DNA from: Chloroflexota bacterium
Lineage (GTDB): Bacteria; Chloroflexota; Anaerolineae; J102
Assembly (NCBI GenBank): GCA_029782215.1
Contig: JAKOVD010000119.1
Span: 32,473-96,472, forward strand
Length of the DNA: 64,000 bases
Direction of reading: 5' to 3'
Under the pieces are notes generated by a model. The model saw nothing but the letters and a program-made list of their open reading frames with translations, was not told where the DNA came from and did not search any database. Of the stretch, positions 2,494 through 63,702 are shown piece after piece. Numbering within the stretch: position 1 is the first letter of the stretch; each line of letters opens with the position of its first letter. The translations under genes were made by a program, and so were the position numbers.

Positions 2494-3315
2494 TCAGGAA
2501 CGCGCCTCCGCGGCGCTGCTGCCAGCCATCCAGTGCCGGGCGGCCGCGATCAGGATGGGCAAACAGGTCATCGCCACCTCAGGGCCAAACTGGCGTCGAG
2601 GCGGCCGGCCTGCGGCGCGCCCGGTGGCATAGTTGGTGAGATAACAGAGGCTGGCGTAAGCCAGACCAGCCTCCTGGGCCAGGAACACCTCCGGCGAGAG
2701 GGTCATGCCGACCAGGTCGGCCCCGGCCGCGGCGTAGAGGGCGATCTCCGCCGCCGTCTCCAGACGCGGTCCTTCCGTACACACGTAGACGCCCCTGGCG
2801 TGCCAGCGCAGGTCGGGCGGAGCCGCACCAGCCAGGGCAGCGCTGATCGCAGCCCGGGCGCCTGGGTGAAATGCCGGGCCTGTAGCGGCTGCCATGCCCT
2901 CAAGGCTAAAGGTCGCCACGCGGGTGCGGGTGAAATCGAGAAAGTCGTGCGGCGCCACCAGGTCGCCCACCTCGAGCTGCGGCGTAATGGCGCCGGTCCC
3001 GTTCCAGGAAAAGACCACCTCGGCGCCCAAGGCGGTCGCCGCCCAAATCAGGGCCCGGTGATTGAGGAACCCCGCCGACCGCTGCAGACGCTCGTGGCCA
3101 TGCCGCGAGCAGAAGGCGATCGGTGCGCCGGTCCGATCGGGATCGAGAAGGACGATCGGCGGGGAAATGCCGTAGGGGGTGTCAATGGCGGCCGGCGCCC
3201 CAAGGGGGCCAAAGGGCGCCAAATCGAGGCCGTAGGCGGCGGTGCCGCCTACGATCAGGACGAGCGCACGGCGTTCAGAGATATCCTGGTTAGAGAACAC
3301 GACGCTGGCCGACAT
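2494..3315 (-). CDS. MTAP/PNP-family nucleoside phosphorylase, predicted 6-oxopurine type
   Basis: This 273-residue protein belongs to the methylthioadenosine/purine nucleoside phosphorylase superfamily. Visible motifs are GGT (residues 23-25, phosphate loop), SRHGHE (70-75), WNGTGAI (104-110), GDLVAPHDFLDF (117-128) and CTEGPRLETAAE (179-190). The base-recognition stretch reads TNYA (227-230). Classical MTAP has Asp-x-Asp here (TDYD); Asn with Ala is the pattern I recall for methylthioinosine phosphorylases and Asn is typical of 6-oxopurine PNPs. So inosine-type substrates (methylthioinosine, 5'-deoxyinosine, or even futalosine) are more likely than adenine nucleosides. Futalosine menaquinone genes lie a few kb away and no mqnB is seen in the window. 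It is the first gene of an operon with three unknown membrane proteins. Confidence 0.8.
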   Translation of the reverse strand: MSASVVFSNQDISERRALVLIVGGTAAYGLDLAPFGPLGAPAAIDTPYGISPPIVLLDPDRTGAPIAFCSRHGHERLQRSAGFLNHRALIWAATALGAEVVFSWNGTGAITPQLEVGDLVAPHDFLDFTRTRVATFSLEGMAAATGPAFHPGARAAISAALAGAAPPDLRWHARGVYVCTEGPRLETAAEIALYAAAGADLVGMTLSPEVFLAQEAGLAYASLCYLTNYATGRAAGRPPRRQFGPEVAMTCLPILIAAARHWMAGSSAAEARS

Positions 3316-7287: not shown

Positions 7288-7323
7288 ACCGGGAGAACCC
7301 GCTTTTACTCGCGCCCCGGTCTA
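7285..7323. terminator. hairpin between convergent mscL and mtnA-like genes
   Basis: Arms TAGACCGGG (7285-7293) and CCCGGTCTA (7315-7323) are perfect inverse copies. The left arm begins within the mscL stop codon (TAG) and the right arm falls inside the 3' end of the mtnA-like gene on the other strand. The 21-nt loop is long and there is no clean T-run, so it may be a weak bidirectional terminator. Confidence 0.35.
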
Positions 7324-8345
7324 TCACCCTCCCAATACGTCCCCACCCGGTGCGCCGGAAAGACGCCGCGGTCCGTGACGATGCCGCTGATCAGGTGAGG
7401 GGGGGTGATGTCAAAAGCCGGGTAGAGGGCATCGATACCCTCGACGGCGGTGCGCTGGCCAGCCAGGTATAGCACCTCGCGGCCGTTCCGCCACTCGATG
7501 GTGATGCCGCCGGCCGCGGGCGTCTGCGGGTCGGGCCCGTCATAGCCCAGCACGTAGAAGGGCAGGCGGTGGTAGTGGGCAGCCAGGGCGATCTGGAAGG
7601 TCCCTACTTTGTTCGTGATGTGCCCGTCCAGGGTAATGCGGTCGGCGGCGCAAATGAACTTATCGATCAGGCCCTGGCTCATCAGGTGGGCAGGCATGCC
7701 GTCGGTGACCAGGGTACAGGGAATGCCCATCTCGACGGCGCTCTGGCTGGTCAGACGGGCGCCCTGCAGGTAGGGCCGTGTCTCCGTGGGATAGAGGTGG
7801 ATGCGCTTGCCCTGGCTGCGGGCGATCCAGAGCATCCAGCACAGGGCGGCGCCGGCGAAGCAGTGGGTGAGCACACGGTCACCGTCAGCCAGCAAATCAG
7901 CGGCGTACTGGCCACAGGCGCGGCTGACCTGGTTGCCGCGCTCGATCTCGGCATTGACATAGGACAGGACGGCATTCCTGGCATCCTCCCCAGCGGCCAG
8001 GGCTGCCAGCGCCCGCTCCAGCGCCGCCGGGATGACGTGGTGCAGATCGTCGGCCGTGGGGCGCGTGGCCAGCAGGCGGTCGGCGGCGCGGCGGTAGGCC
8101 GTCGCCGTGGGCTCGCTCAGCACCATGCCCAGGCCGGCGGCGTAGGCCAGCGGCGGCCCGCCCTGCACGACCATGTCCTCGACGGCCTGCGCCACCTCCT
8201 CCACCGTGCGGCAGGCCACGTACTCGGTGGCAAACGGGTACTTCCGCCGGTCCAGCAGCACCACCGCCTGTTTCGCAGGGTCATAGCGGAGGGTATTGAA
8301 GCGGTCGGCAAGGACGGCGGGGCAGGGGGGAATGCTAGAAGGCAT
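7305..8345 (-). CDS. mtnA: methylthioribose-1-phosphate isomerase family protein (divergent MtnA)
   Basis: A 346-residue protein with the full MtnA/eIF2B-alpha-like layout: the family loop (here VQGGPPLAYAAGLG), the catalytic Cys162 in LTHCFAG, ETRPYLQGARLTSQSAVEMG, the catalytic Asp235 in AADRITLDG, and TNKVGTFQIALAAHYHRLPF. Canonical MtnA usually has GAPAIG, THCNAG, GADRIAANGD and a conserved STID segment. Several are altered here and STID is replaced by PDPQ. The catalytic Cys and Asp are kept, so it is probably an active isomerase, possibly acting on a related 5-deoxy-pentose 1-phosphate. It begins 6 nt after hypE and is the last gene of the mqnC-mqnP-mqnE-hypE operon. An MTAP-family phosphorylase at 2494-3315 could supply its substrate. 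Confidence 0.75.
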   Translation of the reverse strand: MPSSIPPCPAVLADRFNTLRYDPAKQAVVLLDRRKYPFATEYVACRTVEEVAQAVEDMVVQGGPPLAYAAGLGMVLSEPTATAYRRAADRLLATRPTADDLHHVIPAALERALAALAAGEDARNAVLSYVNAEIERGNQVSRACGQYAADLLADGDRVLTHCFAGAALCWMLWIARSQGKRIHLYPTETRPYLQGARLTSQSAVEMGIPCTLVTDGMPAHLMSQGLIDKFICAADRITLDGHITNKVGTFQIALAAHYHRLPFYVLGYDGPDPQTPAAGGITIEWRNGREVLYLAGQRTAVEGIDALYPAFDITPPHLISGIVTDRGVFPAHRVGTYWEGDRPGRE

Positions 8346-8351
8346 GTCTGT

Positions 8352-9410
8352 TCAGCAGATCCGCGGTAGCTGCTCACCGCTCAGCATGTCCACCACCCGC
8401 AGGCCGCCAACGCGGCTGCGCAGGAAGACCCGGCCGGGGTGGTCTGCGACCACATGGCCGATGACCGCCGCCCCCTGGCCGCGGGGATGCGCCCGCATCG
8501 CCGCCAACACCACCTCGGCGGCCTCCGGGGCGACGATGGCCAGGCACTTGCCCTCGTTGGCCACGTAGAGGGGGTCAAAGCCTAAGATCTCGCACGCCCC
8601 CGCCACGTCCTCGCGCACGGGGATGTCTTTCTCGACCAGGCGGATGCCCACCTGCGCCTGCTGGGCGATCTCGTTCACGACGCTGGCCACGCCCCCGCGG
8701 GTCGGGTCGCGCAGCACGTGCACTCCCTCGCCCCCGGCCGCCAGCATCGCCGCCACCAGGTCATGCAGGGGCGCCGAATCGCTGAGGATCGCAGTCTCGA
8801 ATTCCAGCCCCTCCCGCACCGACATGATGGCAATGCCGTGCTCGGCGATGGAACCGCTGATCAGGACCACGTCTCCGGGCTGCGCCCGCTGCGGCGAGAT
8901 CGACACGCCCGCAGGCACCAGGCCCAGACCAGCCGTGTTGATGTAGAGCCCATCTCCCTTGCCGCGGTCCACGACCTTGGTGTCGCCGGTCACCACCGGC
9001 ACACCCACGGCCTGCGCCGCCGCCTGCAGCGAACGCACCACCTGCCACAGCTCCGCCATCGCCAGCCCCTCCTCCAGGATCATGCCCACCGACAGCGCCA
9101 GGGGTTGGGCGCCGCACATGGCCAGATCGTTGACCGTGCCGTGCACCGCCAGGGAACCGATGTCGCCGCCGGGGAAAAAGCGCGGGCTGATGACGTAGGT
9201 GTCGGTGGAGAAGGCCAGGCGCCCGCCGTTCACGGTCAGGATGGCGCCATCATGCAGCATCCCCAGGGCCGGGTTGGCGAAGGTGGGCGCAAACATCCGC
9301 TCGATCAGCATCTGCGTCAGACGCCCGCCGCCGCCGTGCGCCAGCAGCACCTGCGGGTAGTCGCTGATGGGAATGGGGCACTGCAGGGCAAAGTCGATGG
9401 GAGCGGTCAT
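8352..9410 (-). CDS. hypE: hydrogenase maturation protein HypE (thiocarboxamide dehydratase)
   Basis: HypE dehydrates the carbamoyl group that HypF places on its C-terminal cysteine, giving the thiocyanate that becomes the CN ligands of the [NiFe] centre. The protein ends in PRIC, the required terminal Cys352. Other family motifs are [58 protein letters not shown] and [14 protein letters not shown]. The ORF extends to 9434, but those extra codons lie in a 7-nt repeat array, so the ATG at 9410 is preferred (352 residues). hypE is separated from hypABFCD (57097-62618) by 48 kb and lies instead between mqnE and the mtnA-like gene. Confidence 0.93.
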
Positions 9411-9412
9411 GG

Positions 9413-9480
9413 GGTGGCAGGTAGCAGGCGGCAAGTGGCAGGTGGCAAGTGGCCACCTGCCACTTGCTACTTGCTACCTA
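9413..9480. repeat. bipolar array of degenerate 7-nt repeats between mqnE and hypE
   Basis: From 9413 the plus strand reads GGTGGCA, GGTAGCA, GGCGGCA, AGTGGCA, GGTGGCA, AGTGGCC. It then switches to the inverse orientation ACCTGCC, ACTTGCT, ACTTGCT, ACCTA. This gives a perfect 15-bp hairpin (9431-9445 with 9453-9467) that extends imperfectly to 25 bp. The array fills the whole gap, running into the mqnE stop codon at one end and to 2 nt from the hypE start at the other. A single-orientation array of the same heptamer lies at the start of mqnA (62758-62799). Confidence 0.85.
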
Positions 9481-10671
9481 ATTCAGCTCGACATGCGTGA
9501 TCTTGACTTCCCCACGGCGGGTCTTGCGGCTGCTGGGGGCATAGTTCTCGATGGGCTGGTCGTAGACCTCGACGAGGTTGTAGACCGTGTCGCGTTCGAC
9601 GGGCGTCTTCCCCGCCGCCTTGATCAGGCGCAGCAGGTCGAACTTCTCGAGCTGTTCGTCGGTGGTGGCCCCGGCGTCGTGATAGATCTTCTCCTCCACC
9701 ACGGTGCCGTCGATGTCGTCGGCGCCAAAGTGCAGGGCAAGCTGGGCGATCGGCGGGGTCAGCATGATCCAATAGGCCTTGATGTGGGCGAAGTTGTCCA
9801 GCATGATCCGGCTCACAGCCAGGGTCTTCAGGGTGTCGTGGGCAGTCGTCCAGTCGAGCCTGCGCCCCAGGTTGTTGTTCTCGGGATGGTATCGCAGGGG
9901 AATGAACGTCTGGAAGCCCCCGGTGTCGTCCTGCAGCTCGCGGAGGCGCAGCAGATGGTCGACGCGATGCTCGTAGTGCTCGATATGGCCATACAAGAGG
10001 GTGGCATTGGTGCGAAGGCCCAGGCGATGGGCCGTGCGGTGGACGGCCAGCCAGGTGTCGGCGTCGGCCTTCTCCGGGCAGATCTTGTTGCGGACGTCCG
10101 GGTGGAAGATCTCGGCGCCGCCGCCCGGCATCGAATCCAGGCCGGCATCGATCAGCCGGCGCAGAATGGCCTCGTGGCTCAGACCCATCAACTGGGCGAA
10201 GAAGTCGATTTCGACCGCGGTGAAGGCCTTGAGGTGGATCCGGGGATAGGCCTGCTTGAGCGCCCGCAGGATGTCCTCATAGTAGTCGAAACCCAGGCGC
10301 GGGTGGAGGCCGCCCACGATGTGGAACTCAGTGACGCGTTCGTGGATATCAGGCCGGACGCGCTCGACGATCTCGGCCGGGGTCCAGGTGTAGGCGCCGG
10401 GGCTGTCTTCCAGCGGGCGGGCAAAAGAGCAGAAGTTGCAGTGAAAAGCGCAGACGTTGGTGGGGTTGATGTGGCGGTTCTGGTTGAAGTAGACGTACTG
10501 GCCACCGTTGAGCCGTGTGTTGACCAGGTCGGCCAACTGGCCAATGGTCAACAGGTCATGGCTGCGAAACAGCCGCAGCCCATCGTCGTAACCCAGGCGT
10601 TCGCCGGCCTGGACCTTGGCAATGATGTCGGCAAGATCGCTTGTGTGTGTGCTTGTGGGAATGGATAACAT
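9478..10671 (-). CDS. mqnE: aminofutalosine synthase MqnE (radical SAM)
   Basis: MqnE joins the adenosyl moiety of SAM to 3-[(1-carboxyvinyl)oxy]benzoate, the MqnA product, making aminofutalosine. The [4Fe-4S] ligands are C74, C78 and C81 in CAFHCNFC. Family stretches are YFNQNRHINPTNVC, FHIVGGLHPRLGFDYYEDIL, LKAFTAVEIDFF, LDSMPGGGAEIF, NATLLYGHIEHYEHRVDHL and FIPLRYHPENN; the last few separate it from MqnC. At 397 residues it has normal length. It is 36 nt downstream of mqnP and has a GAGG-type ribosome site. Its stop codon abuts the heptamer array that separates it from hypE. Confidence 0.94.
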   Translation of the reverse strand: MLSIPTSTHTSDLADIIAKVQAGERLGYDDGLRLFRSHDLLTIGQLADLVNTRLNGGQYVYFNQNRHINPTNVCAFHCNFCSFARPLEDSPGAYTWTPAEIVERVRPDIHERVTEFHIVGGLHPRLGFDYYEDILRALKQAYPRIHLKAFTAVEIDFFAQLMGLSHEAILRRLIDAGLDSMPGGGAEIFHPDVRNKICPEKADADTWLAVHRTAHRLGLRTNATLLYGHIEHYEHRVDHLLRLRELQDDTGGFQTFIPLRYHPENNNLGRRLDWTTAHDTLKTLAVSRIMLDNFAHIKAYWIMLTPPIAQLALHFGADDIDGTVVEEKIYHDAGATTDEQLEKFDLLRLIKAAGKTPVERDTVYNLVEVYDQPIENYAPSSRKTRRGEVKITHVELN

Positions 10672-10707: not shown

Positions 10708-11595
10708 CTAGAGGGCCACGGCGAGGCCCAGGAGGGTGGCCACGAAGGCGATGATGCTGATATAGCCGTTCATGGTGAAGAAGGCGAGGTTGACCTTGCT
10801 CAGGTCCGTTGGTTTAACCAGGGTATGCTCGTAAACCAGCAGACCGGCCACGATCAGCAGACCGATCCAGTAGGGCCACCCCAGGCCGGCAACGATGCCG
10901 GTGGCTGCTAAGAGCAGGACGGTGAGGACGTGGCAGACCTCGGAAAGGCGCAGCGCCGGCGCAATGCCAAAGCGCGCCGGGACGGACTTGAGGCCGTCGC
11001 GACGGTCCACATCGACATCCTGGCAGGCATAGATGAGGTCAAAGCCGCCGATCCACACGGCGACGGCAGCCCAAAGCAGCCAGGGAATGGGGTTGTTGAG
11101 GCTGGCCGTCACTGCCGCCCAGGCGCCGGCAGCGGCGGCGCCGTCGACCAGACCCAGCCAGAGATGGCAGAGCCAGGTGAAGCGCTTGGTGTAGGCGTAG
11201 CCGACCAGGCCGATCACGGCCAGAGGCGAGAGCAGCAGCACGAAGGTGTTCAACTGCCATGCGGCTAGCAGCATCACGCCCAGGGCAAGAAACCCTGCCA
11301 CCCACACGGCGCGCTTGCTGATGCGCCCGCTCTGGATCGGACGTCCCGCCGTCCGCGGGTTGCGGGCATCGATCTCGGCGTCGATGGCACGGTTGAATGC
11401 CATGGCCGCCGTGCGCGCCGCGCCCATGGCTACCGTGATCCACACAAACTGCCAGAGCAGGGTTGGCCAGGCAATGGGCGTCGCCAGGGCTCCCGTTTCC
11501 GACCACGCCAGGACCATGCCCAGGTAGGCAAAGGGCAAGGCGAAGATCGTATGCTCGAACTTGATCATTTCGAGAAACGTGCGGAAGCGAGACAT
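10708..11595 (-). CDS. mqnP: UbiA-family prenyltransferase of the futalosine menaquinone pathway (MqnP)
   Basis: A 295-residue polytopic UbiA-family protein that should prenylate the 1,4-dihydroxy-6-naphthoate made by the pathway. It has the first Asp-rich motif NRAIDAEIDARNPRTAGRP and the second DLIYACQDVDVDRRDGL, with about eight or nine membrane segments. Its position between mqnC and mqnE in one operon makes the MqnP role much more likely than 4-hydroxybenzoate prenylation. It begins 44 nt after mqnC and ends 36 nt before mqnE. Confidence 0.9.
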   Translation of the reverse strand: MSRFRTFLEMIKFEHTIFALPFAYLGMVLAWSETGALATPIAWPTLLWQFVWITVAMGAARTAAMAFNRAIDAEIDARNPRTAGRPIQSGRISKRAVWVAGFLALGVMLLAAWQLNTFVLLLSPLAVIGLVGYAYTKRFTWLCHLWLGLVDGAAAAGAWAAVTASLNNPIPWLLWAAVAVWIGGFDLIYACQDVDVDRRDGLKSVPARFGIAPALRLSEVCHVLTVLLLAATGIVAGLGWPYWIGLLIVAGLLVYEHTLVKPTDLSKVNLAFFTMNGYISIIAFVATLLGLAVAL

Positions 11596-11639: not shown

Positions 11640-12857
11640 CTAAAGGCCGGCGACCGGAATGAACTGCGCTGCGCGCTCCTGCAGCCCATCCAGGCGGGTG
11701 GGGATGGGGACGGGCGCCAGCTCCGCCGGCGTCATGACGTGGTCGAAGCTGCGGACGATCCGGTAGCGGCTGTCCCGCTGCGCTGGGATGGAGCCCGCCA
11801 TGCGGATCTGCTCGTGCAGGCGGTGAACGGTCATGCGCTGTTCCTGCTGCGTGTAGGCCGCAGCCTGGCTGACCACGTTCTCTTCGAGCATGGTGCTGCC
11901 GAAGTCGTTTGAGCCGGCAAAGAGGGTGCGCCGCGCCGTATCCAGTCCCTGCGTGGGCCAGCTTGCCTGGAAGTTGGTGAAGTTGTCGAGATAGATGCGG
12001 GCGAAGGCGTTGGTATGCACGTACTCATCATAGCCGGCGCCGTATTTGTGCCGGTGACGGCTGCGGCCCAGGCTGTTGGTCTCGCTGAGCTGCGCCGTCC
12101 ACATGATGAAGGCGGTGAAGCCGTTGCCGTGGCTGGACAGCGATTCGTCCTGCAGGTTCCGCAGGTGGGTCAGGCTGCTGATGCGCTGCTCCATCGTCTC
12201 GTCAAAACCGATGACCATGGTCGCCGAGGTGGTCATGCCCAGCCGTTGGGCGATGCGCATGGCGTGAATCCACTGCGCGGTCTTCGTCTTCTTGGGGGAG
12301 ATGCGCCCGCGCACCTCATCATCCAGGATCTCAGCGCCGCCGCCAGGCAGGCCGTCCAGGCCGGCGCTGTGCAGCCGGGCCAGCACTTCCTCCATCGTCA
12401 TGGTCTCAAGATGGGCGATGTTCTCGATTTCGGAAGGGCTGAAACAGTCCAGGTCGATCTCCGGGTAGGTCGCCTTCAGCCAGGACAGCATGTCCTCGTA
12501 CCACTCAATGCGCAGGGCCGGGTTGTGCCCTCCCTGCATGAGGATGCGGGTGCCGCCCCACGCCAGCAGCTCCTCGACCTTGGCGCCGATCTGCTGCTTG
12601 TCCAGCACGTAGACCTCGGGATGTCCGGGGACGCGGTAGAACGAGCAGAACTGGCAGTCGGTGGTGCAGGCGTTGGTATAGTTGATATTGCGGTCGATCA
12701 GGTAGGTCACCAGGCCCGGCGTTGTGCGCTGCAGGCGCAGCTCATGGGCGATGGCCATGACCGCTTCGGGGTCGGCTTCGGTATAGACCTGCAGGCCTTC
12801 GGCGGGCGTCAGGCGCTCACCCGCTGCGGCCTTCTTGAGCAAATCGCTGGTGATCAT
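11640..12857 (-). CDS. mqnC: cyclic dehypoxanthine futalosine synthase MqnC (radical SAM)
   Basis: MqnC cyclises dehypoxanthine futalosine to the cyclic spiro intermediate and releases 5'-deoxyadenosine. The [4Fe-4S] ligands are C64, C68 and C71 in CTTDCQFC. Diagnostic stretches are DRNINYTNAC, FYRVPGHPEVYVL, LMQGGHNPALRIEWYEDML, FSPSEIENIAHL, LDGLPGGGAEIL and TSATMVIGFDETMEQRISSL. Its 405 residues make it slightly longer than usual, with a C-terminal tail. The start codon overlaps the stop of the DUF697-like gene (ATGA). 5'-deoxyadenosine made here would need salvage, which the MTAP-like and MtnA-like genes nearby might provide. Confidence 0.93.
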   Translation of the reverse strand: MITSDLLKKAAAGERLTPAEGLQVYTEADPEAVMAIAHELRLQRTTPGLVTYLIDRNINYTNACTTDCQFCSFYRVPGHPEVYVLDKQQIGAKVEELLAWGGTRILMQGGHNPALRIEWYEDMLSWLKATYPEIDLDCFSPSEIENIAHLETMTMEEVLARLHSAGLDGLPGGGAEILDDEVRGRISPKKTKTAQWIHAMRIAQRLGMTTSATMVIGFDETMEQRISSLTHLRNLQDESLSSHGNGFTAFIMWTAQLSETNSLGRSRHRHKYGAGYDEYVHTNAFARIYLDNFTNFQASWPTQGLDTARRTLFAGSNDFGSTMLEENVVSQAAAYTQQEQRMTVHRLHEQIRMAGSIPAQRDSRYRIVRSFDHVMTPAELAPVPIPTRLDGLQERAAQFIPVAGL

Positions 12858-27786: not shown

Positions 27787-30195
27787 ATGTCCAACCCGAA
27801 CCCGCGCTGGCGAGAACTCGCAGGCTATCTCACCGCACGCACGCATCTGCACAATCTCCTGTTCGTGTTGGCGGGAGGCTATGCGCTTGGCCTGTGGTGG
27901 TGGGAGCGCAGGCATCCGCAGGTGTTGGGACCCTATCTCCTCGGCAATCAAATCCCGGCGGACGCACGTCCCACGCTGGCAGGGCTAATTCTGGCGATGG
28001 GATTGGCGTTTGGGTTGTGGTTGGTGGGTGCGGCGGCACTGACCTTGCTCACCCGGCGCAGCCTGGTCCTGTTTCTGAACCTGGGTTCAGCCCTCCTGCT
28101 GGCCTGCGTTCTGGCCCCGTTGGCACTGGCGCTCGGCGTGCCTGGCATCGAGGCCGAGCGTCCGGCGTTTCTCTTTGCCGTCGTGGGGATGATGGCCCTG
28201 GTGGCGGGAGCGGCGGCCCACGAGGCGGACCGCCAGTTTGGCCAGGTGGGGGCATCCACGCACCCGCAGCGCGATGACCGCCTGGGTTTGGTCCTCATCA
28301 TCCTGCTCGCAGCCGGGTATGCCGTCTACATGAGCGTGCTGACCATAGGCAGGCACAATCTCTTCCTGACGCATGCCTTCGATCTCGGCGTCTACGACCA
28401 GTCGGTCTGGAATCTGCTGCACAGCGGCTATATGCGTTCCACGCAGCATGGTCTGGAAGCCATCAACCATGCCAGCAAACACTTCTCACCGATCTTCCTC
28501 CTGGTGGCGCCCATCTACGCCCTGTACCAGGATGCGCGCAGCCTCCTGGTGCTGCAGAGTGTGGCCCTGGCGGCGGCAGCCATCCCCATCTACCTCCTGG
28601 CGAAACGCAAGACCGGGAGCATCCTGCTGGCCCTGGTTTTGGGCGCCAGCTACCTGCTGGCGCCGTCCCTGCACGGTGTCAATACCTTTGACTTTCACGA
28701 GCTCGCGCTCGTCACCGTGCTCCTGGCCACAGCACTGTATGCGCTCGAAACCAGGCGCGACCTGCTCTTGCTCGTCACACTGGCACTCTCGTTGGCAGTC
28801 AAGGAAGAGGTGGCGCTGACCGGCGCTGCCATGGGCCTGTATCTTGTGGTTGCCAAGCGCCGCTACCGGTTGGGGGCAGGCGTGGCCGTGGTCAGCCTGA
28901 TCTATTTCGTCCTGGTCATCAAGGTGGCCATGCCGGCCCTGGGAGGCGTGCCGCTGCTGGACCGGTTTGGCGGCATGATGACGCCGGAGGCAGGCGGGAT
29001 CACCGGCATTGTCCGCACCCTGTTCACCAATCCCCTCTACGTCTTCAGCTTCGTCCTGCTGGATCCCGCCAAACTCACGTATCTTTTGGAGCTGCTGCTC
29101 CCGGTCGTCCTCACACCGCTGTTGGGCGGTCTGGGCTGGATCGCCGCGGCGCCTGCTTTCGCTGTGCCCTTTCTCTCTTCGGCCGAAACGCAGTTCAGCA
29201 TCGCCTACCACTACTCGGCCCATCTGCTCCCCTTCGTCTACTTCCTTGCGATCCTGGCATTGCAGCGCTGGATCCCCCGCCTTGGGAGCAAGCCTGCCTT
29301 CGCCGCCGCCATCCTGGTGGCCAGCCTGGCCATGAACTACACCTATGGTTGGGTCTTTGCCAAGGGCTGGGAGGGCATGCCTGTGCGCACGGCCCATGCC
29401 GCCGCCATCGAACAGATCATCGAATCCTCCATTCCCCGCGAGGCGGCGGTGAGCGCCATGAGCGACCTGGTGCCCCATGTGTCGGCGCGCCGCGACATCT
29501 ACCTCTTTCCCATCGTCAAGGATGCCGACTACCTCCTCGTGGATACCGACAGCCGCGCCAATTTCTGGCCCTACGAAGGCCCGAAGGCGCAGGCCCAGGC
29601 ACTGGCGGCGCTGCTGCCCTACGTGGCCGGCGGCGCTTACGGCATCGTTGCCGGCGAGGACGGCGCCTTTCTGCTCAAGAAGGGGGCGGCGGCGCCGGAT
29701 ACGGGGGAAGCGGTGCGCCGGGTGCTTGCGGCCCGTTATGAGGCCGAAGCGCTGCCCGGAGATCTCAATGCGCCTGACCTGCCCAGCCAGGGCGCGAGCG
29801 AAGGCATTGCCCGCCGTATCACCCCGGACCTGGTCAATGCCGAAGGCAAGACCGCGATCGTCTTCGGCCCGTATACGACACTCTATCCGGGCAAGTACCG
29901 CGTCAGCTTCCGGATGAAGGTGGAGGGCGAACCCGTTTCAGGCTCTCTTGCCACGGTGGACGTGTTCTCGCACTTCGACGGATATCCGCGCGCTACGCGT
30001 GAGGTGACAGCAGCCGACTTCCCCCGTACCGGCGAATACCAGCCGATCACGCTGGAATTTGACCTGGGTCAGACGCTAGAGGATGTCGAGTTCCGGGCGA
30101 TGTATCACGGCAAGGGCGAGATCTGGCTGGATGCCATCGAGGTGACGCCCCTTGCCGTGCAGTTGCCGCCGGAAGTCTCTGGTCAGAAGCCGTAG
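27787..30195 (+). CDS. DUF2079-family membrane protein with C-terminal carbohydrate-binding-like domain
   Basis: An 802-residue protein. After three N-terminal helices comes the DUF2079 core, marked by THAFDLGVYDQSVWNLLHSG and HASKHFSPIFLLVAPIYAL and about ten further membrane segments. These are GT-C-like multipass proteins of uncertain substrate. The C-terminal 250 residues are extracytoplasmic, ending in a beta-rich module (YPGKYRVSFRMKVEGEPVSG, EIWLDAIEVTPL) that looks like a carbohydrate-binding jelly roll. Its 3' end overlaps the convergent ubiD gene by 13 nt. It is transcribed away from the 1420-residue fusion across a 166-nt gap. Confidence 0.78.
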   Translation: MSNPNPRWRELAGYLTARTHLHNLLFVLAGGYALGLWWWERRHPQVLGPYLLGNQIPADARPTLAGLILAMGLAFGLWLVGAAALTLLTRRSLVLFLNLGSALLLACVLAPLALALGVPGIEAERPAFLFAVVGMMALVAGAAAHEADRQFGQVGASTHPQRDDRLGLVLIILLAAGYAVYMSVLTIGRHNLFLTHAFDLGVYDQSVWNLLHSGYMRSTQHGLEAINHASKHFSPIFLLVAPIYALYQDARSLLVLQSVALAAAAIPIYLLAKRKTGSILLALVLGASYLLAPSLHGVNTFDFHELALVTVLLATALYALETRRDLLLLVTLALSLAVKEEVALTGAAMGLYLVVAKRRYRLGAGVAVVSLIYFVLVIKVAMPALGGVPLLDRFGGMMTPEAGGITGIVRTLFTNPLYVFSFVLLDPAKLTYLLELLLPVVLTPLLGGLGWIAAAPAFAVPFLSSAETQFSIAYHYSAHLLPFVYFLAILALQRWIPRLGSKPAFAAAILVASLAMNYTYGWVFAKGWEGMPVRTAHAAAIEQIIESSIPREAAVSAMSDLVPHVSARRDIYLFPIVKDADYLLVDTDSRANFWPYEGPKAQAQALAALLPYVAGGAYGIVAGEDGAFLLKKGAAAPDTGEAVRRVLAARYEAEALPGDLNAPDLPSQGASEGIARRITPDLVNAEGKTAIVFGPYTTLYPGKYRVSFRMKVEGEPVSGSLATVDVFSHFDGYPRATREVTAADFPRTGEYQPITLEFDLGQTLEDVEFRAMYHGKGEIWLDAIEVTPLAVQLPPEVSGQKP

Positions 30196-31649
30196 GCCTG
30201 CCAGCGCCGGGTCACGCGCTCTTTGATCTCGGCGCTCATGTCGATGGGGGTGGGCCAGCCGCGGGCATAGCCTTCTTCGGGCAGCTTGCGCGTGGCATCG
30301 ATGCCCATCTTGCCGCCAAAGGCGAAGTGATGGCTGCCGTGGTCGAGGGCATCGACGGGACCGTCCTGGATGATGATGTCCCGGCCCCAATCGACGTTGC
30401 CGAACATGTGGAACAGCGCCTCCTGCTCGTTCTGCACGTCCACATCGGCATCCACGATGACGATGCACTTGGTCAGCATCATCAGGCCCAGGCCCCACAG
30501 GCCGTTGATCACCTTGCGGGCGTGGCCGGGGTAGCGCTTTCTGATCGACACGAAGATAACGTTGTGAAAGACGCCGGCCGCGGGCATGTTGACGTCCACG
30601 ATCTCGCCCTGGAAGATCTTCATCAGGGGCAGGAACAGGCGCTCGGTGGCCTTGCCCATCCAGTAGTCCTCCATGGGCGGCTTGCCGACGATGGTCGTGG
30701 GGTAGATGGCATCCTTGCGATGTGTGACGGCGGTGATGTGGAGCACCGGATAGAGCGCAGGCGGCGTGTAGAACCCGGTATGGTCGCCAAAGGGGCCTTC
30801 CAGCCGGCTCTCTGCCGGGTCCACGTAGCCTTCGATCACGATCTCAGCGCTGGCCGGCACCTCCAAGGGCTGTGTCAGGCAGCGCACCAACTCGACCGGC
30901 TTGCCGCGCAGCCAGCCCGCCAGCAGGAATTCGTCAATGCCCGGCGGCAGGGGGGCGCTCCCACACCACATCACGGCCGGATCGCCGCCCAGGCTGAGGG
31001 CGACGGGAACCTGCGCCTGGCCCACTTCCCGGGCCTCACGCTCGTGCTCGGCGCCGCCCTTGTGCAACTGCCAGTGCATGCCCACCGTGCGCTCGTCGTA
31101 GACCTGGACGCGGTACATGCCCACGTTGCGTCCATGGGTGACAGGGTCGCGGGTGATGACTGTGGTCATCGTGATGTAGGGGCCGCCGTCCTCGGGCCAG
31201 CAGGTCAGGATGGGCAGGCCCGCCAGCGTGGCGTCGGCGCCGGTCTTGACGACTTCCTGCACCGGGGCCTTGCTGGTGATGCTTGGCTTGAAGCCCACGC
31301 TGCGCAGGGCGCCAAACAGGTCGGTGGCCCGTCCCAGCGCCGGCCCCAGGCCTTGCGGCAGCTTCATGTCGACCAACCTGGCCAGGTTGTCCCTCAGGTC
31401 GTTCAGGTCGTCGACACCGAGCGCCCAGGCCATCCGCCGCGGGCTGCCCAGGGCGTTGATCAGGACGGGCATATCGGAGCCCCGCACCCTTTCAAACAAA
31501 AGCGCCTTGTTCTTCTCCAGAGGTCCCTTGCTCACGCGGTCGGTGATCTCGGTGATTTCCAGGTAAGGGTCCACGGGCGCGGTAATGCGCAGCAGCTCGC
31601 CCGCATCTTCCAGGCGTTTGATGAAGTCGCGGAGGTCTCTGTAAGCCAT
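30183..31649 (-). CDS. ubiD: UbiD-family decarboxylase, probably menaquinone pathway
   Basis: A 488-residue UbiD-family prenylated-FMN decarboxylase. Motifs include MAYRDLRDFIKRLEDAGELL at the N-terminus, ITSKAPVQEVV, ILTCWPEDGGPYITMTTVIT, GMYRVQVYDERTVGMHWQ, ESRLEGPFGDHTGFYTP and RKRYPGHARKVINGLWGLG. With MqnA, C, E and P in the same window it most likely decarboxylates the prenylated dihydroxynaphthoate. No ubiX, which makes the cofactor, is seen. It follows the nucleoside hydrolase on the same strand but a strong hairpin lies between them, so it may have its own transcript. Its 3' end overlaps the convergent DUF2079 gene. Confidence 0.88.
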   Translation of the reverse strand: MAYRDLRDFIKRLEDAGELLRITAPVDPYLEITEITDRVSKGPLEKNKALLFERVRGSDMPVLINALGSPRRMAWALGVDDLNDLRDNLARLVDMKLPQGLGPALGRATDLFGALRSVGFKPSITSKAPVQEVVKTGADATLAGLPILTCWPEDGGPYITMTTVITRDPVTHGRNVGMYRVQVYDERTVGMHWQLHKGGAEHEREAREVGQAQVPVALSLGGDPAVMWCGSAPLPPGIDEFLLAGWLRGKPVELVRCLTQPLEVPASAEIVIEGYVDPAESRLEGPFGDHTGFYTPPALYPVLHITAVTHRKDAIYPTTIVGKPPMEDYWMGKATERLFLPLMKIFQGEIVDVNMPAAGVFHNVIFVSIRKRYPGHARKVINGLWGLGLMMLTKCIVIVDADVDVQNEQEALFHMFGNVDWGRDIIIQDGPVDALDHGSHHFAFGGKMGIDATRKLPEEGYARGWPTPIDMSAEIKERVTRRWQAYGF

Positions 31650-31776: not shown

Positions 31777-32700
31777 CTAGCGCCCCCACTGGTGCATGAG
31801 ATAGGCGAAGAAGGCTTCCTTGTCCACCGCATCCAGGGCCGTGATCCGTTTGCCGCCTTCCTGGACCTGCGTCCGGCCCTGGCTGGGACCGGTGGGGATG
31901 ATGACGGTCTCCCATTCCCTGGTGGTGAACAGGTCGGGCCGGGCCAGGTAGCCGGTGGTCAGCACGTCCCAACAGTAGTAGTCCTGGTGCATGACCAAGG
32001 CGTAGCAGTACCCGGCCAGCTCGGAAACCGGGTACTGCGGGCGCTGTCCCAACTGGCGCACGAATGCCGGCGTGACCTTGACGTGGTTGGTGATGTCGAG
32101 CGGGCACAGAACGATGGGGATACCGGTCTGCCAGACGGCATGGGCCGAAAGGGGATCCCAATAGACGTTCCATTCCATCGACATGTCCTGGCCGCCGTCG
32201 ATCCAGTGGGAGACATTGCCGGGCACGTTGAGCGCCCCGCCCATCCACAGGATGCGGCCGATCTTTGCGGCAAGGTCGGGAGACTGCGCAAGCGCCGCCG
32301 CGAGGGTCGTCAGGGGGCCGGTCTCGAGGATCGTCACTGGCCCCGCGGCTTCCCGCAGGGACCGCGCCTGGAAGTCCTGGCCGGTCTCCGCCAGCAGGGG
32401 CGTGGCGATGGCATCGTGGCGGTTCAGGATCGGAAAGTGATCGACATGGAAGGAGCTGCGCCGGAATGCCCTGGGAAAAGGGTTGATCCCGCGCACCGTG
32501 CTCTCGGCGACCGGGATCGTGGAGCGCCCCATCAGGTCCATGATCTTGCGCGTGGCGCCCACGGCCGGCTTGATGTAGCAGTCGGCCGGCGTGACGATGA
32601 CCCCGAGCAGGTCGATGTGCTCCAGGGTCAGCAGCAGCATCAGGGCCAGGTAGTCGTCCAGGCCGCCATCGTGATCGAAGAGAACGAGCTCGCCAGGCAT
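31777..32700 (-). CDS. inosine-uridine-type nucleoside hydrolase
   Basis: A 307-residue member of the nucleoside hydrolase family, which splits ribonucleosides into base and ribose. The N-terminal Ca-binding cluster is DHDGGLDDYLAL, a variant of the usual DTDPGIDD. Further family signatures are GVIVTPADCYIKPAVGATRK, ILETGPLTTLAAAL, ILWMGGALNVPGN and the active-site region YYCWDVLTTGYL. It lies 23 nt after rbsD, in line with import of nucleosides, hydrolysis, ribose mutarotation and phosphorylation. The altered N-terminal motif keeps the acidic ligands, so it should be active; base preference cannot be read. Confidence 0.88.
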   Translation of the reverse strand: MPGELVLFDHDGGLDDYLALMLLLTLEHIDLLGVIVTPADCYIKPAVGATRKIMDLMGRSTIPVAESTVRGINPFPRAFRRSSFHVDHFPILNRHDAIATPLLAETGQDFQARSLREAAGPVTILETGPLTTLAAALAQSPDLAAKIGRILWMGGALNVPGNVSHWIDGGQDMSMEWNVYWDPLSAHAVWQTGIPIVLCPLDITNHVKVTPAFVRQLGQRPQYPVSELAGYCYALVMHQDYYCWDVLTTGYLARPDLFTTREWETVIIPTGPSQGRTQVQEGGKRITALDAVDKEAFFAYLMHQWGR

Positions 32701-32723
32701 ACCGGCGCCTCCCTTGCCGCGCG

Positions 32724-33200
32724 TTACTTGCCGCCCTGCATCTGCTCAATGCGCCTGCGGTAGGAATCGGGCACGTTGAGTCCGGGCTTGGAGAACCAGA
32801 CGGGCGCATCCACGCCGGAGTAGAGCAGGATGTTGCCCCAGGGTTCAAAAGCGCCTGTCCGCACGATCACCTTGGCTTTGGCCGCCATTTCGTTGAGGAT
32901 GGTGGCATGAGGGATCGGCTCGTAGTCGCAGTCGGTAAAGATGCGGTGAACCAATGCCGCCAGCGGTGGATTGTTCTGGGTCATTTCGGCGGCGTAGGAC
33001 ACCTTTTCGGCGATGAAGGCCCCGGCAATGGCCGAAAGAACGGTCTCCATGTCCGGCACATCAGGCACGACCGCCAGATCGATGCGCCAGGCGCTGGAGG
33101 GAATGGGGAACCCGGCGTCGCAGACCATCATCAGGTCGCCGTGGCCCATCAGGCCGATGGCCGAGAGAAGTTCAGAGTTGAGAAGTTGACCGCGGTACAT
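32724..33200 (-). CDS. rbsD: RbsD/FucU-family sugar mutarotase (D-ribose pyranase)
   Basis: The ATG at 33200 has an AGGAG site just upstream; the longer ORF reading to 33425 is antisense-like shadow of rbsK. The 158-residue protein has the RbsD/FucU motifs LLNSELLSAIGLMGHGD (with the catalytic His), VCDAGFPIP, IPHATILNEMAAKAKVIVRTG and PWGNILLYSGV. It should interconvert pyranose and furanose forms of ribose freed by the nucleoside hydrolase, feeding ribokinase. It sits between rbsK and the hydrolase on one transcript. Confidence 0.9.
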   Translation of the reverse strand: MYRGQLLNSELLSAIGLMGHGDLMMVCDAGFPIPSSAWRIDLAVVPDVPDMETVLSAIAGAFIAEKVSYAAEMTQNNPPLAALVHRIFTDCDYEPIPHATILNEMAAKAKVIVRTGAFEPWGNILLYSGVDAPVWFSKPGLNVPDSYRRRIEQMQGGK

Positions 33201-33255
33201 GGGGTTGCTCCTGGGGTGAGAGGAATGAGTGGTGGATGGTGCGAGGAGTGAGCGA

Positions 33256-34185
33256 CTAGCGATAGTGCTGTTCGTAAAAGGCGTCGACGGCAGCTCGCGT
33301 CGCCAGCGAAGGGATGACCCCCAGCCGCGTACACGCCAGCGCGCCGGCGCAATTGGCGAAGCGGACGGCATCCTCCAGGTCGCTGCCTTCGGCCAGGGCC
33401 ACGGCCAGTCCGGAGTTGAAGGCATCGCCTGCGCCGGTCGTGTCCACGACGTTGACCGACAACCCTGGGACCTCGATCATGCCCTGGTTGGAGAGCACCA
33501 GGGTGCCCCGTTCGCCCATGGTGACGATGAGGTTGCCGACGCCGTGGGCACGCAGCCGCTGCGCCAGCTCCAGCGTCGGGGTGGGATCGTCAGGCGCAAG
33601 CCCCAAGAGGATGCGCAGCTCGGTCTCGTTGGGCGTCAGGTAGTCGACGTTGGCCAGCACATCGTCGCCCAGTTTGGTGGCGGGAGCCGGGTTGAGGATG
33701 GTGTGTACACCGTGCTTTTTGCCGAGTTCCATGGCCTTTGCCGCTGCCGGGACCGGCAGCTCAAGCACACTCATCACCACATCGCTGCGCGCGATCTGGG
33801 CCTCCACCTGGCTGACGAAGCTGCCATCCATCAGCTTGTTCGCCCCCATGTCCAGGATGATCCCGTTGTGTCCGGCCTCGTTGAGGATGATGAAGCCGAC
33901 GCCGGTGGCTGCTTCGTTGGTCTTGTGCAGATGGCTCGTATCCACCCCTTCACTAGCATAGAGGTCAGTGGCAATTTCGCCCAGCTTGTCATCGCCGATG
34001 ATCCCAGCGAAAAAGGAGCGAGCGCCGAGGCGAGCCGTGCCCACGGCCTGGTTGGAGCCTTTGCCACCCGGTCCCATGTCGAAGTCGGAACCGACGAGGG
34101 TCTCGCCAAAGACTGGCATGCGCGACGTCCGCAGGGTCATGCCCACGGCGAAGCTGCCCACGATGGTAATGATGGGTCGGGTCAT
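33256..34185 (-). CDS. rbsK: ribokinase (PfkB family)
   Basis: A 309-residue PfkB-family kinase with ribokinase features: N-terminal VGSFAVGMTLRTSRMPVFGE, the double-Gly substrate loop GPGGKGSNQAVGTARLG, LTPNETELRILLG, VTMGERGTLVL and the catalytic anion hole DTTGAGDAFNSG. It has a strong AGGAGG ribosome site. The gene order importer, kinase, mutarotase, hydrolase argues that ribose from imported nucleosides is the substrate. Confidence 0.9.
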   Translation of the reverse strand: MTRPIITIVGSFAVGMTLRTSRMPVFGETLVGSDFDMGPGGKGSNQAVGTARLGARSFFAGIIGDDKLGEIATDLYASEGVDTSHLHKTNEAATGVGFIILNEAGHNGIILDMGANKLMDGSFVSQVEAQIARSDVVMSVLELPVPAAAKAMELGKKHGVHTILNPAPATKLGDDVLANVDYLTPNETELRILLGLAPDDPTPTLELAQRLRAHGVGNLIVTMGERGTLVLSNQGMIEVPGLSVNVVDTTGAGDAFNSGLAVALAEGSDLEDAVRFANCAGALACTRLGVIPSLATRAAVDAFYEQHYR

Positions 34186-34224
34186 TCATTCCCTCCTGAG
34201 ATTTCGGTTGGTGAAAGCAACTCT

Positions 34225-34256
34225 CCACCCGGCGCCTTGACAAGGCAGCCGGGTGG
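34225..34256 (-). other. intergenic hairpin between permease 2 and rbsK
   Basis: CCACCCGGC (34225-34233) pairs with GCCGGGTGG (34248-34256), and inner GCC/GGC bases extend the stem with one bulge. It sits in the 110-nt gap between the importer genes and the catabolic genes. On the minus strand it is followed by AGAGTTGC rather than a T-run, so it may stabilise or process the transcript rather than end it. Confidence 0.4.
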
Positions 34257-34295
34257 AATGGGTCGGAAAGCTCTGCAACTCCCCCAGCCCGGCTC

Positions 34296-35579
34296 CTACT
34301 CGTCTTTCGAGTAGGGCTTGCCGTCGGCCGCAGGGGCCACTGCCCGCCCGACCACGCCGGCCAGGGCGATCATGGTAAAAATGTAGGGCGCCATGAGCAG
34401 AAACTGCGAGGGAATGGGCACCTTGAGGATCGAAAGCTTGCCTTGCAGCGATTCGGCAAAGCCGAAGATCAGGCTGGCGCCAAAGGCGCCGAAGGGCATC
34501 CACTTCCCGAAGATCATGGCGGCCAGGGCGATGAAGCCGCGGCCTGCGGTCATCAGCTCGTCGAAGCGACCCACCGACCCGATGCTGAAGTAGGCCCCGC
34601 CGAATCCGGCCACCAGGCCGCCCAGGAGCACAGCGATGTAACGGGTGCGGAAGACGTTGATGCCCAGGGTGTCCGCCGCCCGCGGGTGCTCACCCACGGC
34701 CCGTACGCGCAGGCCCCAGCGGGTGTAGAACAGCCCAACGTGGATGACGATCAGCAGGATATACATCCCGAACAGAAAGATGTTGCCTTCGAAGAAGATA
34801 GGACCAAGCACGGGTATCTTGCCCAGGATCGGCAGGGAAAACGGCTTGAACGTCCCCGGGTTGTTCAACTCCGCAAAGGTCTGCAGGAACTTGGCCGAGA
34901 TGAAACTGGTGATGCCGACCGAGAAGATGTTGATGACCGTGCCGCTAATGATCTGGTCAACCCGGTAGTGGATGGAAAGGACGGCGTGGATGGCAGCCAA
35001 CAGGGCGGCGGAGAGCATGGCCGCCATCAGCCCGATCCACAGACTTCCTGTGACGCTGGCGACCAGGGAAGCGACCATGGCCCCCATCAACATCATGCCC
35101 TCGATGGCGATGTTCACGACGCCCGAACGTTCACAGAGGATGCCCGAAAGGGCGCCGATGGTCAGCGGCACCGACCGCTGCACCGTCGCCTTGAGCATTC
35201 CGGCCAGGTTGATCGACTGACCACGCGTCGCCCAAGTCAGGAAGGAGAACACGAAAAACACGATGGCCAGACCGAGCAGGAGCGTGACTCGCCGGCCAAA
35301 CCCACGGGCAAGCTGGTAGGCGCCCAGGGCCACGGTGGCAAGGGCCAGGATGCTGACGGTGCTGTAGGTGGGGAGCACCCAATCGGGCAAGCGCTCGGAC
35401 GCTGGCACGGCTCCTTGATTGAGGCCGAAGGTCGACACCATCCCGGATTCGACGCTGGCGCCAAAGAGCCAGTACGTGGCCAGGCCGAGCAAGATGAATA
35501 TGATGCCGTAGGCGCGGTGGCGCCACTGGTGCGCCTTCTCGGTCCTTGCCGCCACTGCAGCCGCCGTTGACGTCGTCAT
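34296..35579 (-). CDS. nucleoside ABC importer permease (NupC/YufQ type)
   Basis: The ATG at 35579 (MTTSTAAAVAARTEKAHQW) has a GAGGAG site upstream and replaces the longer ORF-track start; 427 residues. It belongs to the BPD_transp_2 permease family that partners BMP lipoproteins. Visible family stretches are GILCERSGVVNIAIEGMMLMGAM, VINIFSVGITSFIS, VGEHPRAADTLGINVFRTRY and GRGFIALAAMIFGKWMPFGA. About ten membrane segments. It forms a heteromeric pore with the permease encoded upstream, energised by the double ATPase at 36940-38499. Confidence 0.87.
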   Translation of the reverse strand: MTTSTAAAVAARTEKAHQWRHRAYGIIFILLGLATYWLFGASVESGMVSTFGLNQGAVPASERLPDWVLPTYSTVSILALATVALGAYQLARGFGRRVTLLLGLAIVFFVFSFLTWATRGQSINLAGMLKATVQRSVPLTIGALSGILCERSGVVNIAIEGMMLMGAMVASLVASVTGSLWIGLMAAMLSAALLAAIHAVLSIHYRVDQIISGTVINIFSVGITSFISAKFLQTFAELNNPGTFKPFSLPILGKIPVLGPIFFEGNIFLFGMYILLIVIHVGLFYTRWGLRVRAVGEHPRAADTLGINVFRTRYIAVLLGGLVAGFGGAYFSIGSVGRFDELMTAGRGFIALAAMIFGKWMPFGAFGASLIFGFAESLQGKLSILKVPIPSQFLLMAPYIFTMIALAGVVGRAVAPAADGKPYSKDE

Positions 35580-35634
35580 GATAGGACTCTCCTCTGCTCG
35601 TACGCTGAAAGATCCGGTGCGGTCGCTGTCACTG

Positions 35635-36873: not shown

Positions 36874-36939
36874 CGCATCACTCCATGGGGATGAGGAACA
36901 ACCGCGCGGTCTGATGAGCCATCGGCCAGACCGTGACTG

Positions 36940-38499: not shown

Positions 38500-38577
38500 A
38501 GCAAATCCAAAAAGGAACGGAACCGGCGTTCAGGCAGTACAACGTGGCCCCAAGTTTAGCACACGGGAGCCGATACG

Positions 38578-38616
38578 AAAACTGGCGGCCCGGTTACACT
38601 GGGCCGCCAGTTTTTT
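38578..38616 (-). terminator. strong hairpin between the BMP lipoprotein gene and its ATPase
   Basis: ACTGGCGGCCC (38581-38591) pairs perfectly with GGGCCGCCAGT (38601-38611) around a 9-nt loop. On the plus strand six Ts follow; on the minus strand, the direction of transcription, TTTT follows. It lies just after the substrate-binding-protein gene, a usual place for a partial terminator that raises the binding protein over the membrane subunits. Confidence 0.7.
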
Positions 38617-38662
38617 GTTGTGGCTGTGTCCGCAACCTGTCCGGTTGGGGCGGAAACGACGC

Positions 38663-39859: not shown

Positions 39860-39908
39860 GGTTATGTCTCCTCCTTGAGAGAACACCTTGAAGTGACGTG
39901 ACGCGATG

Positions 39909-62690: not shown

Positions 62691-62757
62691 CTCTTTTCCC
62701 CCAACACCTCCCTGACGGTCGGTGCTCGGAATGGGCGACCATCCGGGAGCCACCCCT

Positions 62758-62799
62758 ACCTGCCACCTGCTGCTTGCTACCTGTCCCATGCCACCTGAC
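62758..62799 (+). repeat. 7-nt-period array covering the mqnA start codon
   Basis: ACCTGCC, ACCTGCT, GCTTGCT, ACCTGTC, CCATGCC, ACCTGAC run in tandem; the mqnA ATG (62788-62790) is inside the fifth unit. It matches the ACCTGCC/ACTTGCT half of the array between mqnE and hypE (23 of 26 bases in one alignment) and, in inverse orientation, the other half. Confidence 0.82.
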
Positions 62800-63702
62800 A
62801 CTCTCACCATCGGCATTATCGACTATCTGAACGTCGAGCCGCAGTATTACCGGCTGCAGGAACGCCTGGGCCCGCGCGGGGTCACCTTCCGTCGCTCCGT
62901 GCCATCAGAGCTCAACCGCGCCCTGGCCGTGGGCGAGATCGACCTGGCGCCCATCAGCAGCGTCGCCGCCGCGGCGATGGCGGATCGGGTCGCCATTCTT
63001 CCCGACCTGTCCATTGCCACCATCGGCGCGGTCAAGACCGTCGTCCTCTTCAGTTGGATGCCAGACCCACGCGAGCTCGACGACTGCCGCATCGCCCTGA
63101 CGGACCAATCTGCTACCTCGGCCGAGCTGGTCAAGCTCCTGGCGCGTCGCTTCTGGTGCATCGAGCCGCGGTATAGCACTGAAGCTCAGGACCTCACGCA
63201 GATGATGCGCCGCGCCTCGGCGGCCCTTCTGATCGGCGACGGCGCCCTCGTGGAGTCCGCCCATCGCCGCGAGATTCCCGGCCGCGGCCAACCCTATGCC
63301 TTCGATTTGGGCGACGAGTGGCTGAAGTGGACCGGTCTGCCCTTCGTCTTCGCCCTGTGGGCCGCCCGCCGCGAAGCCCTGCCCCTGATGCAAGAGCTCG
63401 GCATCGTGCCGGCGCTCTACGAGACCAAGGTGGAAGGCCTGGCTCACATCCCGCAAATCGCCCAGGCATACGCCCCCCGGCTGGGACTGCCTATCGGCGT
63501 GCTCACCAAGTACCTCTACGATCTGCGCTACGACCTGAGCCCTGCCGATCGCAGCGGTCTGCTGACCTACCTGATGCAGGTGCTGCCGGACTTCGACCCC
63601 GACCAGGTACAGAGCTGGCACCCGGATGAAGGGCTGCGCCCCCTGTTTGAGGGCATCGAGCCGGCCGCACTCATGCAGACGCCCGCGCCTGTCTCTTCCT
63701 GA
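62788..63702 (+). CDS. mqnA: chorismate dehydratase MqnA
   Basis: MqnA converts chorismate to 3-[(1-carboxyvinyl)oxy]benzoate, the first committed step of the futalosine menaquinone pathway. The start at ATG 62788 (MPPDTLTIGIIDYLN) is preferred; upstream codons lie in the repeat array. At 304 residues it has the family layout of a periplasmic-binding-protein fold: GIIDYLNVEPQYYRL, VPSELNRALAVGEIDLAPIS, LPDLSIATIGAVKTVVLFS, LLIGDGALVES and DLGDEWLKWTGLPFVFALW. The remaining mqn genes are at 9478-12857. mqnB/mqnX/mqnD are not in the window. Confidence 0.93.
   Translation: MPPDTLTIGIIDYLNVEPQYYRLQERLGPRGVTFRRSVPSELNRALAVGEIDLAPISSVAAAAMADRVAILPDLSIATIGAVKTVVLFSWMPDPRELDDCRIALTDQSATSAELVKLLARRFWCIEPRYSTEAQDLTQMMRRASAALLIGDGALVESAHRREIPGRGQPYAFDLGDEWLKWTGLPFVFALWAARREALPLMQELGIVPALYETKVEGLAHIPQIAQAYAPRLGLPIGVLTKYLYDLRYDLSPADRSGLLTYLMQVLPDFDPDQVQSWHPDEGLRPLFEGIEPAALMQTPAPVSS

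Follow-up and report, generated by a model that had tools for sequence, protein, structure and literature searches.

A proposed futalosine phosphorylase of the MTAP fold in menaquinone gene neighbourhoods of Chloroflexota

In the futalosine route to menaquinone, MqnC links the benzoate ring to sugar carbon C4' (PMC8210684), and MqnA and MqnD are both placed in PF02621 (PMC3914697). Ravcheev and Thiele (2016; PMC4746308) have predicted that a PF01048 protein, MqnZ, takes the place of MqnD in Firmicutes. Outside this pathway, phosphorylase, isomerase and aldolase reactions are established for the disposal of 5-deoxyribose and MTA and for the DHAP shunt (PMC6079011, PMC10986504). Many futalosine-pathway bacteria apparently lack two textbook enzymes, which makes their menaquinone pathway look incomplete. 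We analysed a stretch of 64,000 nucleotides (the window) from an Anaerolineae/Caldilineales-like Chloroflexota genome (G000; 6.3 Mb, 98.6% complete). It encodes a protein, hereafter the candidate, that we regard with reasonable though not strong confidence as the purine-base-removing enzyme of the futalosine pathway where MqnB, MTAN and MqnD are absent, most likely acting as a phosphorylase.

Base pocket and phosphate site of the candidate

2494..3315, minus strand: MTAP-fold nucleoside phosphorylase, proposed futalosine phosphorylase (ORF, PF01048, signature residues L185, E186, T187, N228, A230 and G232, pLDDT 89.9, PDB fold matches to MTAP and MTIP)

The ORF is stop-free, begins with ATG, encodes 273 residues and has exactly these bounds; its initial ~17 called residues (window 3265-3315) are unconserved across the family, and the real start may be internal. 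The protein matches PF01048 (E 8.5e-29) and falls below the cut-offs of the MTAP model TIGR01694 (161.3 vs 274.85 bits) and the MTIP model PRK09136 (137.1 vs 223 bits). The MqnB model TIGR03664 does not match it at E 0.001, nor does it match anything in the whole G000 genome. Among proteins of solved structure, MTIP (3ozb) and MTAPs are its best relatives, and the AlphaFold2 model, with 52 family members as input (pLDDT 89.9), matches structures of both.

The initial annotation had read TNYA in place of the classical TDYD, correctly: the base-recognition stretch is CYLTNYATG, the second MTAP of the genome has VTDYD at this place, and the equivalent in Pseudomonas aeruginosa MTIP (3ozb) is LVVNPAAG. 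The pairing of Asn with Ala, given there as a methylthioinosine phosphorylase pattern, is indeed found in 3ozb. A second specificity change was missed by that reading: the Ser of MTAP is replaced by Glu186 (EGPRLET), as in MTIP and PNP. Both adenine-recognising elements, TDYD and the Ser before Thr in GPRFST, are replaced in the candidate by TNYA and EGPRLET, and its Asn/Ala/Glu base pocket equals that of 3ozb. Glu186 is present in 76/76 family members, and Asn228 together with Ala230 in 75/75, so the signature is no chance feature. More broadly, Leu185, Glu186, Asn228, Ala230 and Gly232 vary little or not at all over 75-76 members and are common to MTIP; the Glu, Asn and Ala are also common to PNPs, and MTIP and PNPs all act on 6-oxopurines. 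The invariant residues Trp104 and Gly106 are confined to the candidate's family and the salvage-type group that is its sister.

The phosphate ligands (Thr/Ser25, Arg71, His72 and Thr205; T25, R71, H72 and T205 in the candidate) are kept family-wide, and together with the fold search they place the protein in the nucleoside phosphorylase I (PNP/MTAP) fold. Given the signature residues and the kept phosphate ligands, we predict from the sequence a phosphorylase that acts on hypoxanthine-type nucleosides. The earlier view of a 6-oxopurine-specific MTAP relative is supported.

Pathway genes of the source genome

All the menaquinone genes that had been noticed in the window (mqnA, mqnC, mqnE, mqnP and a ubiD) were found, as was an MtnA-like gene:

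7305..8345, minus strand: divergent MtnA-like aldose-1-phosphate/ketose-1-phosphate isomerase, proposed post-phosphorylase partner (profile scores, Cys162/Asp235, adjoins the candidate's gene in L117, L118 and L149)
9478..10671, minus strand: mqnE, aminofutalosine synthase (TIGR03700, 512.6 bits, cut-off 434.6)
10708..11595, minus strand: mqnP-like UbiA prenyltransferase (NF041586, 345 bits, cut-off 430; TIGR01475 above cut-off)
11640..12857, minus strand: mqnC, cyclic dehypoxanthinyl futalosine synthase (TIGR03699, 412.6 bits, cut-off 428.1, best family)
30183..31649, minus strand: ubiD-like decarboxylase, late menaquinone steps (PF01977, PF20695, PF20696; linked to mqnC in L117)
62722..63702, plus strand: mqnA, chorismate dehydratase, the genome's sole PF02621 gene (PF02621, solved-structure comparison)

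Interleaved with the mqn genes are hydrogenase maturation (hyp) genes (8352-9434, 57477-58136, 58898-61240 and 61527-62618; hypE by NCBIfam, hypB-, hypF- and hypD-like by eye), with hypE between mqnE and the mtnA-like gene and the hypD-like gene immediately ahead of mqnA. Adjoining ubiD, positions 31777-39886 hold an inosine-uridine nucleoside hydrolase, a ribokinase-like gene and nucleoside-uptake-type ABC transporter genes. We rejected this hydrolase (31777-32700) as a futalosine hydrolase: it has no match in 80 neighbourhoods of the candidate's relatives, and it adjoins the ribokinase-like and nucleoside transporter genes.

Four PF01048 proteins are encoded in G000: an inosine/guanosine PNP (above cut-off), the TDYD MTAP, the candidate and a degenerate paralogue. 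Neither MqnB nor MTAN is among them, so that the lack of mqnB, first seen in the window, holds genome-wide. A clear mqnB or MTAN gene elsewhere in the genome, which the initial annotation had named, together with a strong preference for MTA, as what would speak against it, was looked for genome-wide and neither is present. The ordinary PNP and MTAP are disfavoured as enzymes of the MqnB step, since neither tracks mqn. MTA/SAH-type deaminases are encoded in G000, and the TDYD MTAP has its own deaminase gene nearby; near this classical MTAP gene lies an MTA/SAH-deaminase-like amidohydrolase (L005:736-2757, G000:C195) whose long C-terminal extension resembles, by eye, a CYTH domain.

Beyond what had been noticed before, MqnD is missing as well and an MtnA-like isomerase travels with the candidate. 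A PF02621 search of G000 gave mqnA only, and because both MqnA and MqnD are assigned to this family (PMC3914697), we read the single gene as absence of mqnD. No NCBIfam model separates the two proteins, so they were told apart by solved structures, against which the G000 protein is of the MqnA type.

The MtnA-like protein scores 229.6 bits with TIGR00512, below the cut-off of 279, and passes the PRK05720 cut-off. Its Cys162 and Asp235 are invariant and align with 'LTHC' and 'ADRI' of the solved MtnA structures 1t9k and 2yrf, positions that we take to be the catalytic Cys and Asp of MtnA.

Distribution, neighbourhoods and relatives

Across a set of 199 genomes from the class, orthologues of the candidate (~49% identity or more) occur in 19/21 genomes with mqnC and mqnE and in 0/178 others (Fisher p 1.3e-24); the 21 genomes were counted from strong matches, leaving out five with a lone match near 355 bits that we read as CofH. 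The two mqn genomes without an orthologue are G142, with a completeness of 87%, and G166, with 83%. Among four families in which mqn is patchy, the candidate is present in 9/10 mqn-bearing genomes and 0/18 of the remainder (p=1.4e-6), a within-family association for which shared ancestry alone is an insufficient explanation. Orthologues of the MtnA-like gene (at least 58% identity, one a fragment) show a similar profile, with 20/21 mqnC+mqnE genomes and 0/178 others, unlike ordinary MtnA (about 35-41%), which is widespread in the class. TIGR03664 gave matches above cut-off in none of the 199 genomes, and its matches were all rejected as mqnB, every one being sub-threshold.

Scanning GTDB genomes yielded 235 relatives of the candidate, of which the best 80 were kept for neighbourhoods. 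The complete Anaerolineae chromosome CP059258 (L117) has the order ubiD-mqnC-mqnP-mqnE-mqnA-mtnA-candidate. The order deaminase-mqnE-mqnC-candidate is found in L139, L147, L165 and L167 and is seen in Nitrospirota, and mqnE-mqnC-candidate in L151, L168 and L171. In Nitrospirota, Methylomirabilota and Schekmanbacteria the gene lies downstream of mqnC or mqnE, often immediately. An amidohydrolase nearest the aminofutalosine-deaminase family heads the operon or comes after the candidate, and such a deaminase-like neighbour would match a 6-oxopurine substrate. Co-occurrence and operon linkage both tie the candidate to the futalosine pathway. Among the 45 genomes in which PF02621 genes were counted, there is a single gene wherever mqnA is clear (the gene being in fragments in three of these genomes), and five genomes have none or weak/partial matches; in the two cases set against solved structures, the lone gene is of the MqnA type. 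In G202, G210, G211, G212 and G215 (G210 and G212 being Nitrospirota) the full PF01048 set is a normal MTAP, sometimes a PNP, and the candidate.

In the tree, the candidate's family and the degenerate paralogues form one clade with 100/100 support, and MTAPs, PNPs and P. aeruginosa MTIP fall outside, the latter (3ozb) being flagged as a long branch. The sub-clades comprise 49 Chloroflexota rows, 27 mqn-linked rows of other phyla, and five rows of a Spirochaetales/Bacillota/Chloroflexi group, of which both genomes examined (G206, G209) are without a clear mqnA. A search of the Bacillota group of G209 gave one clear family member, that of G209 itself; other matches were ~60 bits lower. At L154, L155, L160 and L162 a candidate-like phosphorylase lies with ABC transporter genes and has an mtnA-like gene ~4 kb upstream; these phosphorylases probably serve nucleoside salvage. 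Another phosphorylase group (GPRFET, Asn-Trp-Ala) stands beside a 45-46% MtnA-like gene at L053 (G187) and L062 (G174), in genomes without the candidate or mqn; the pair is a candidate module for salvage of 5'-deoxyinosine or MTI.

L004:1318-2097 (G000:C172:4216-4992): degenerate PF01048 paralogue, phosphate ligands lost

At the phosphate-ligand positions of this paralogue Thr is replaced by Gln/Leu, Arg by Tyr, His by Phe and Thr by Asn. We rejected it as the missing enzyme on account of these losses and of its distribution, since it occurs in ~14 non-mqn genomes and is absent from several mqn genomes. It runs with ubiE and ubiX in G000 and lies directly downstream of the candidate's gene within the same family; its homologues in non-mqn Anaerolineae (L099-L110) also adjoin ubiE, and once ubiX. 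The paralogue is possibly a non-phosphorolytic enzyme or a partner subunit in quinone synthesis. In Herpetosiphonaceae (L157:10759-11421, L156, L164 and L163) there is a 4-nt overlap between the candidate's gene and another PF01048 gene, which is degenerate and encodes ~220 aa.

A putative route, its rivals and known systems

Three substrates had been suggested at the outset. Futalosine or its cyclised form is favoured among them because of the near-perfect co-occurrence with mqnC and mqnE and the location in mqn operons; 5'-deoxyinosine is the main rival, and methylthioinosine is unlikely, given that the genome has a normal TDYD MTAP as well. In the route that we propose, MqnE and a deaminase would make futalosine, and the candidate would bind it, or the MqnC-cyclised product, through Glu186 and Asn228. 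Phosphate would then attack C1', giving hypoxanthine and a futalosine-derived ribose-1-phosphate; we infer both this substrate and its place relative to MqnC, as well as phosphorolysis over hydrolysis. In Chloroflexota the MtnA-like isomerase may turn the sugar-1-phosphate into a 1-phospho-2-ketose, a step that ordinary MtnA would have to perform elsewhere. With C4' joined to the ring by MqnC, retro-aldol cleavage of C3'-C4' would yield DHAP and 1,4-dihydroxy-6-naphthoate, which is MqnD's job; by our own chemical reasoning, the C2' ketone should make this break a plain retro-aldol. In genomes that encode a class II aldolase, this enzyme would be the catalyst; in others the cleavage may be catalysed by another enzyme or be spontaneous. 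The MtnA-like enzyme and the aldolase would in this manner replace MqnD and release DHAP. Such a phosphorylase-isomerase-aldolase scheme would account jointly for why MqnB and MqnD are absent and why the candidate, the MtnA-like protein and the aldolase are present.

Several observations count against the scheme. The known MqnC substrate is base-free DHFL, not a 1-phosphate (PMC8210684). Spirochaetales/Bacillota members (L154, L162) are found with mtnA-like and ABC transporter genes and no clear mqnA, and the fold therefore also serves another nucleoside. No dedicated MtnA-like gene was found outside Chloroflexota in the candidate-bearing genomes examined, which have one ordinary MtnA instead, or none in the small assembly G210. 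Aldolase linkage is narrow: the window's own family, whose operon comprises the candidate, the degenerate paralogue, a class II aldolase, ubiE/menG and ubiX, and one Herpetosiphonaceae genome. In G000 no class II aldolase was found beside the candidate or L004.

The strongest rival is a disposal of the DHAP-shunt type sited in menaquinone operons, which we consider unlikely. Here the candidate would salvage the by-product of MqnC: 5'-deoxyadenosine would be deaminated to 5'-deoxyinosine and phosphorolysed by the candidate, the MtnA-like protein would isomerise 5-deoxyribose-1-phosphate, and the aldolase would give DHAP and acetaldehyde. Clusters of phosphorylase, MtnA and class II aldolase are known for 5'-deoxyadenosine disposal (PMC6079011, PMC10986504), the Asn/Ala/Glu set is that of a 6-oxopurine nucleoside phosphorylase, and mtnA-like genes adjoin related members in genomes without mqnA. 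Yet all radical SAM enzymes yield 5'-deoxyadenosine and the candidate occurs in none of the 178 non-futalosine genomes, whose bearers must likewise depend on such enzymes; salvage would moreover leave the absence of MqnB/MTAN and MqnD unexplained. It is improbable that the protein is instead a futalosine hydrolase using water, that is, a functional MqnB on an MTAP scaffold with MqnD replaced by something unrelated. Canonical MqnB, which belongs to the same superfamily, is a hydrolase, and the base-free MqnC substrate (PMC8210684) would suit this reading, but the phosphate ligands of the phosphorylase site are all kept in the family, and MtnA, a family that handles sugar 1-phosphates, travels with the candidate in Chloroflexota.

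The absence of MqnD from candidate-bearing genomes, together with the clustering of a PF01048 protein with mqnEAC in mqnD-less Firmicutes (PMC4746308), would also be consistent with an enzyme acting solely after MqnC in place of MqnD, for example on base-carrying cyclised futalosine. We find this quite improbable, as MqnB and MTAN are absent too and base removal would still need an owner, while the 6-oxopurine pocket suits futalosine directly. Methylthioinosine phosphorolysis for MTA salvage, as in Pseudomonas aeruginosa, is very improbable: the pocket is that of 3ozb and MTA/SAH-type deaminases are encoded, but the genome already has its normal MTAP with a neighbouring deaminase gene, the distribution follows mqn and not methionine salvage, and 3ozb, albeit a long branch, lies outside the supported clade.

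Futalosine phosphorolysis by the candidate, our preferred reading, would name a specific gene for the pathway gap in Chloroflexota, Nitrospirota, Nitrospinota, Aquificota and others, offer a chemically sensible replacement for MqnD, and tie menaquinone synthesis to enzymes of 5'-deoxynucleoside salvage. Annotations as 'MTAP' or 'MTIP' inside these mqn operons are probably wrong, and inhibitors directed at MqnB/MTAN need not affect a route based on the candidate. Searches of the mostly open-access literature turned up neither a futalosine phosphorylase nor the MtnA-like isomerase. We regard the proposed pathway as a hitherto undescribed variant of the futalosine route and place the candidate in a new family within the nucleoside phosphorylase I fold, MqnZ being compared through its published description.

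MqnZ is, like our candidate, a PF01048 protein found alongside mqnC and mqnE in mqnD-less genomes (PMC4746308), but it has been proposed solely as the Firmicutes substitute for MqnD. MqnB (TIGR03664) and MTAN share the superfamily and the proposed step, base removal from futalosine or aminofutalosine, whereas the candidate has no TIGR03664 match, bears the phosphate site of a phosphorylase and is found where both are absent. Classical MTAP (TIGR01694) has the same fold and phosphate ligands and provides the closest solved structures; it differs in its adenine-recognising Asp/Asp/Ser, against Asn/Ala/Glu in the candidate, which lies under the curated cut-off. With MTIP (3ozb) the candidate shares the PNP/MTAP fold (Foldseek E about 2e-19), Glu and Asn for the 6-oxopurine, Ala for the second Asp, and Leu before Glu, but MTIP is about 30% identical, falls outside the clade, has Val/Ala at Trp104/Gly106 and shows no link to menaquinone genes. 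Finally, the DHAP shunt and 5-deoxyribose disposal (MtnP or MtnK, MtnA/DrdI, Ald2/DrdA) resemble the proposed route in combining a phosphorylase, an MtnA-family isomerase and a class II aldolase with DHAP as a product; in contrast, the genes described here accompany the futalosine pathway, and the product predicted besides DHAP is 1,4-dihydroxy-6-naphthoate.
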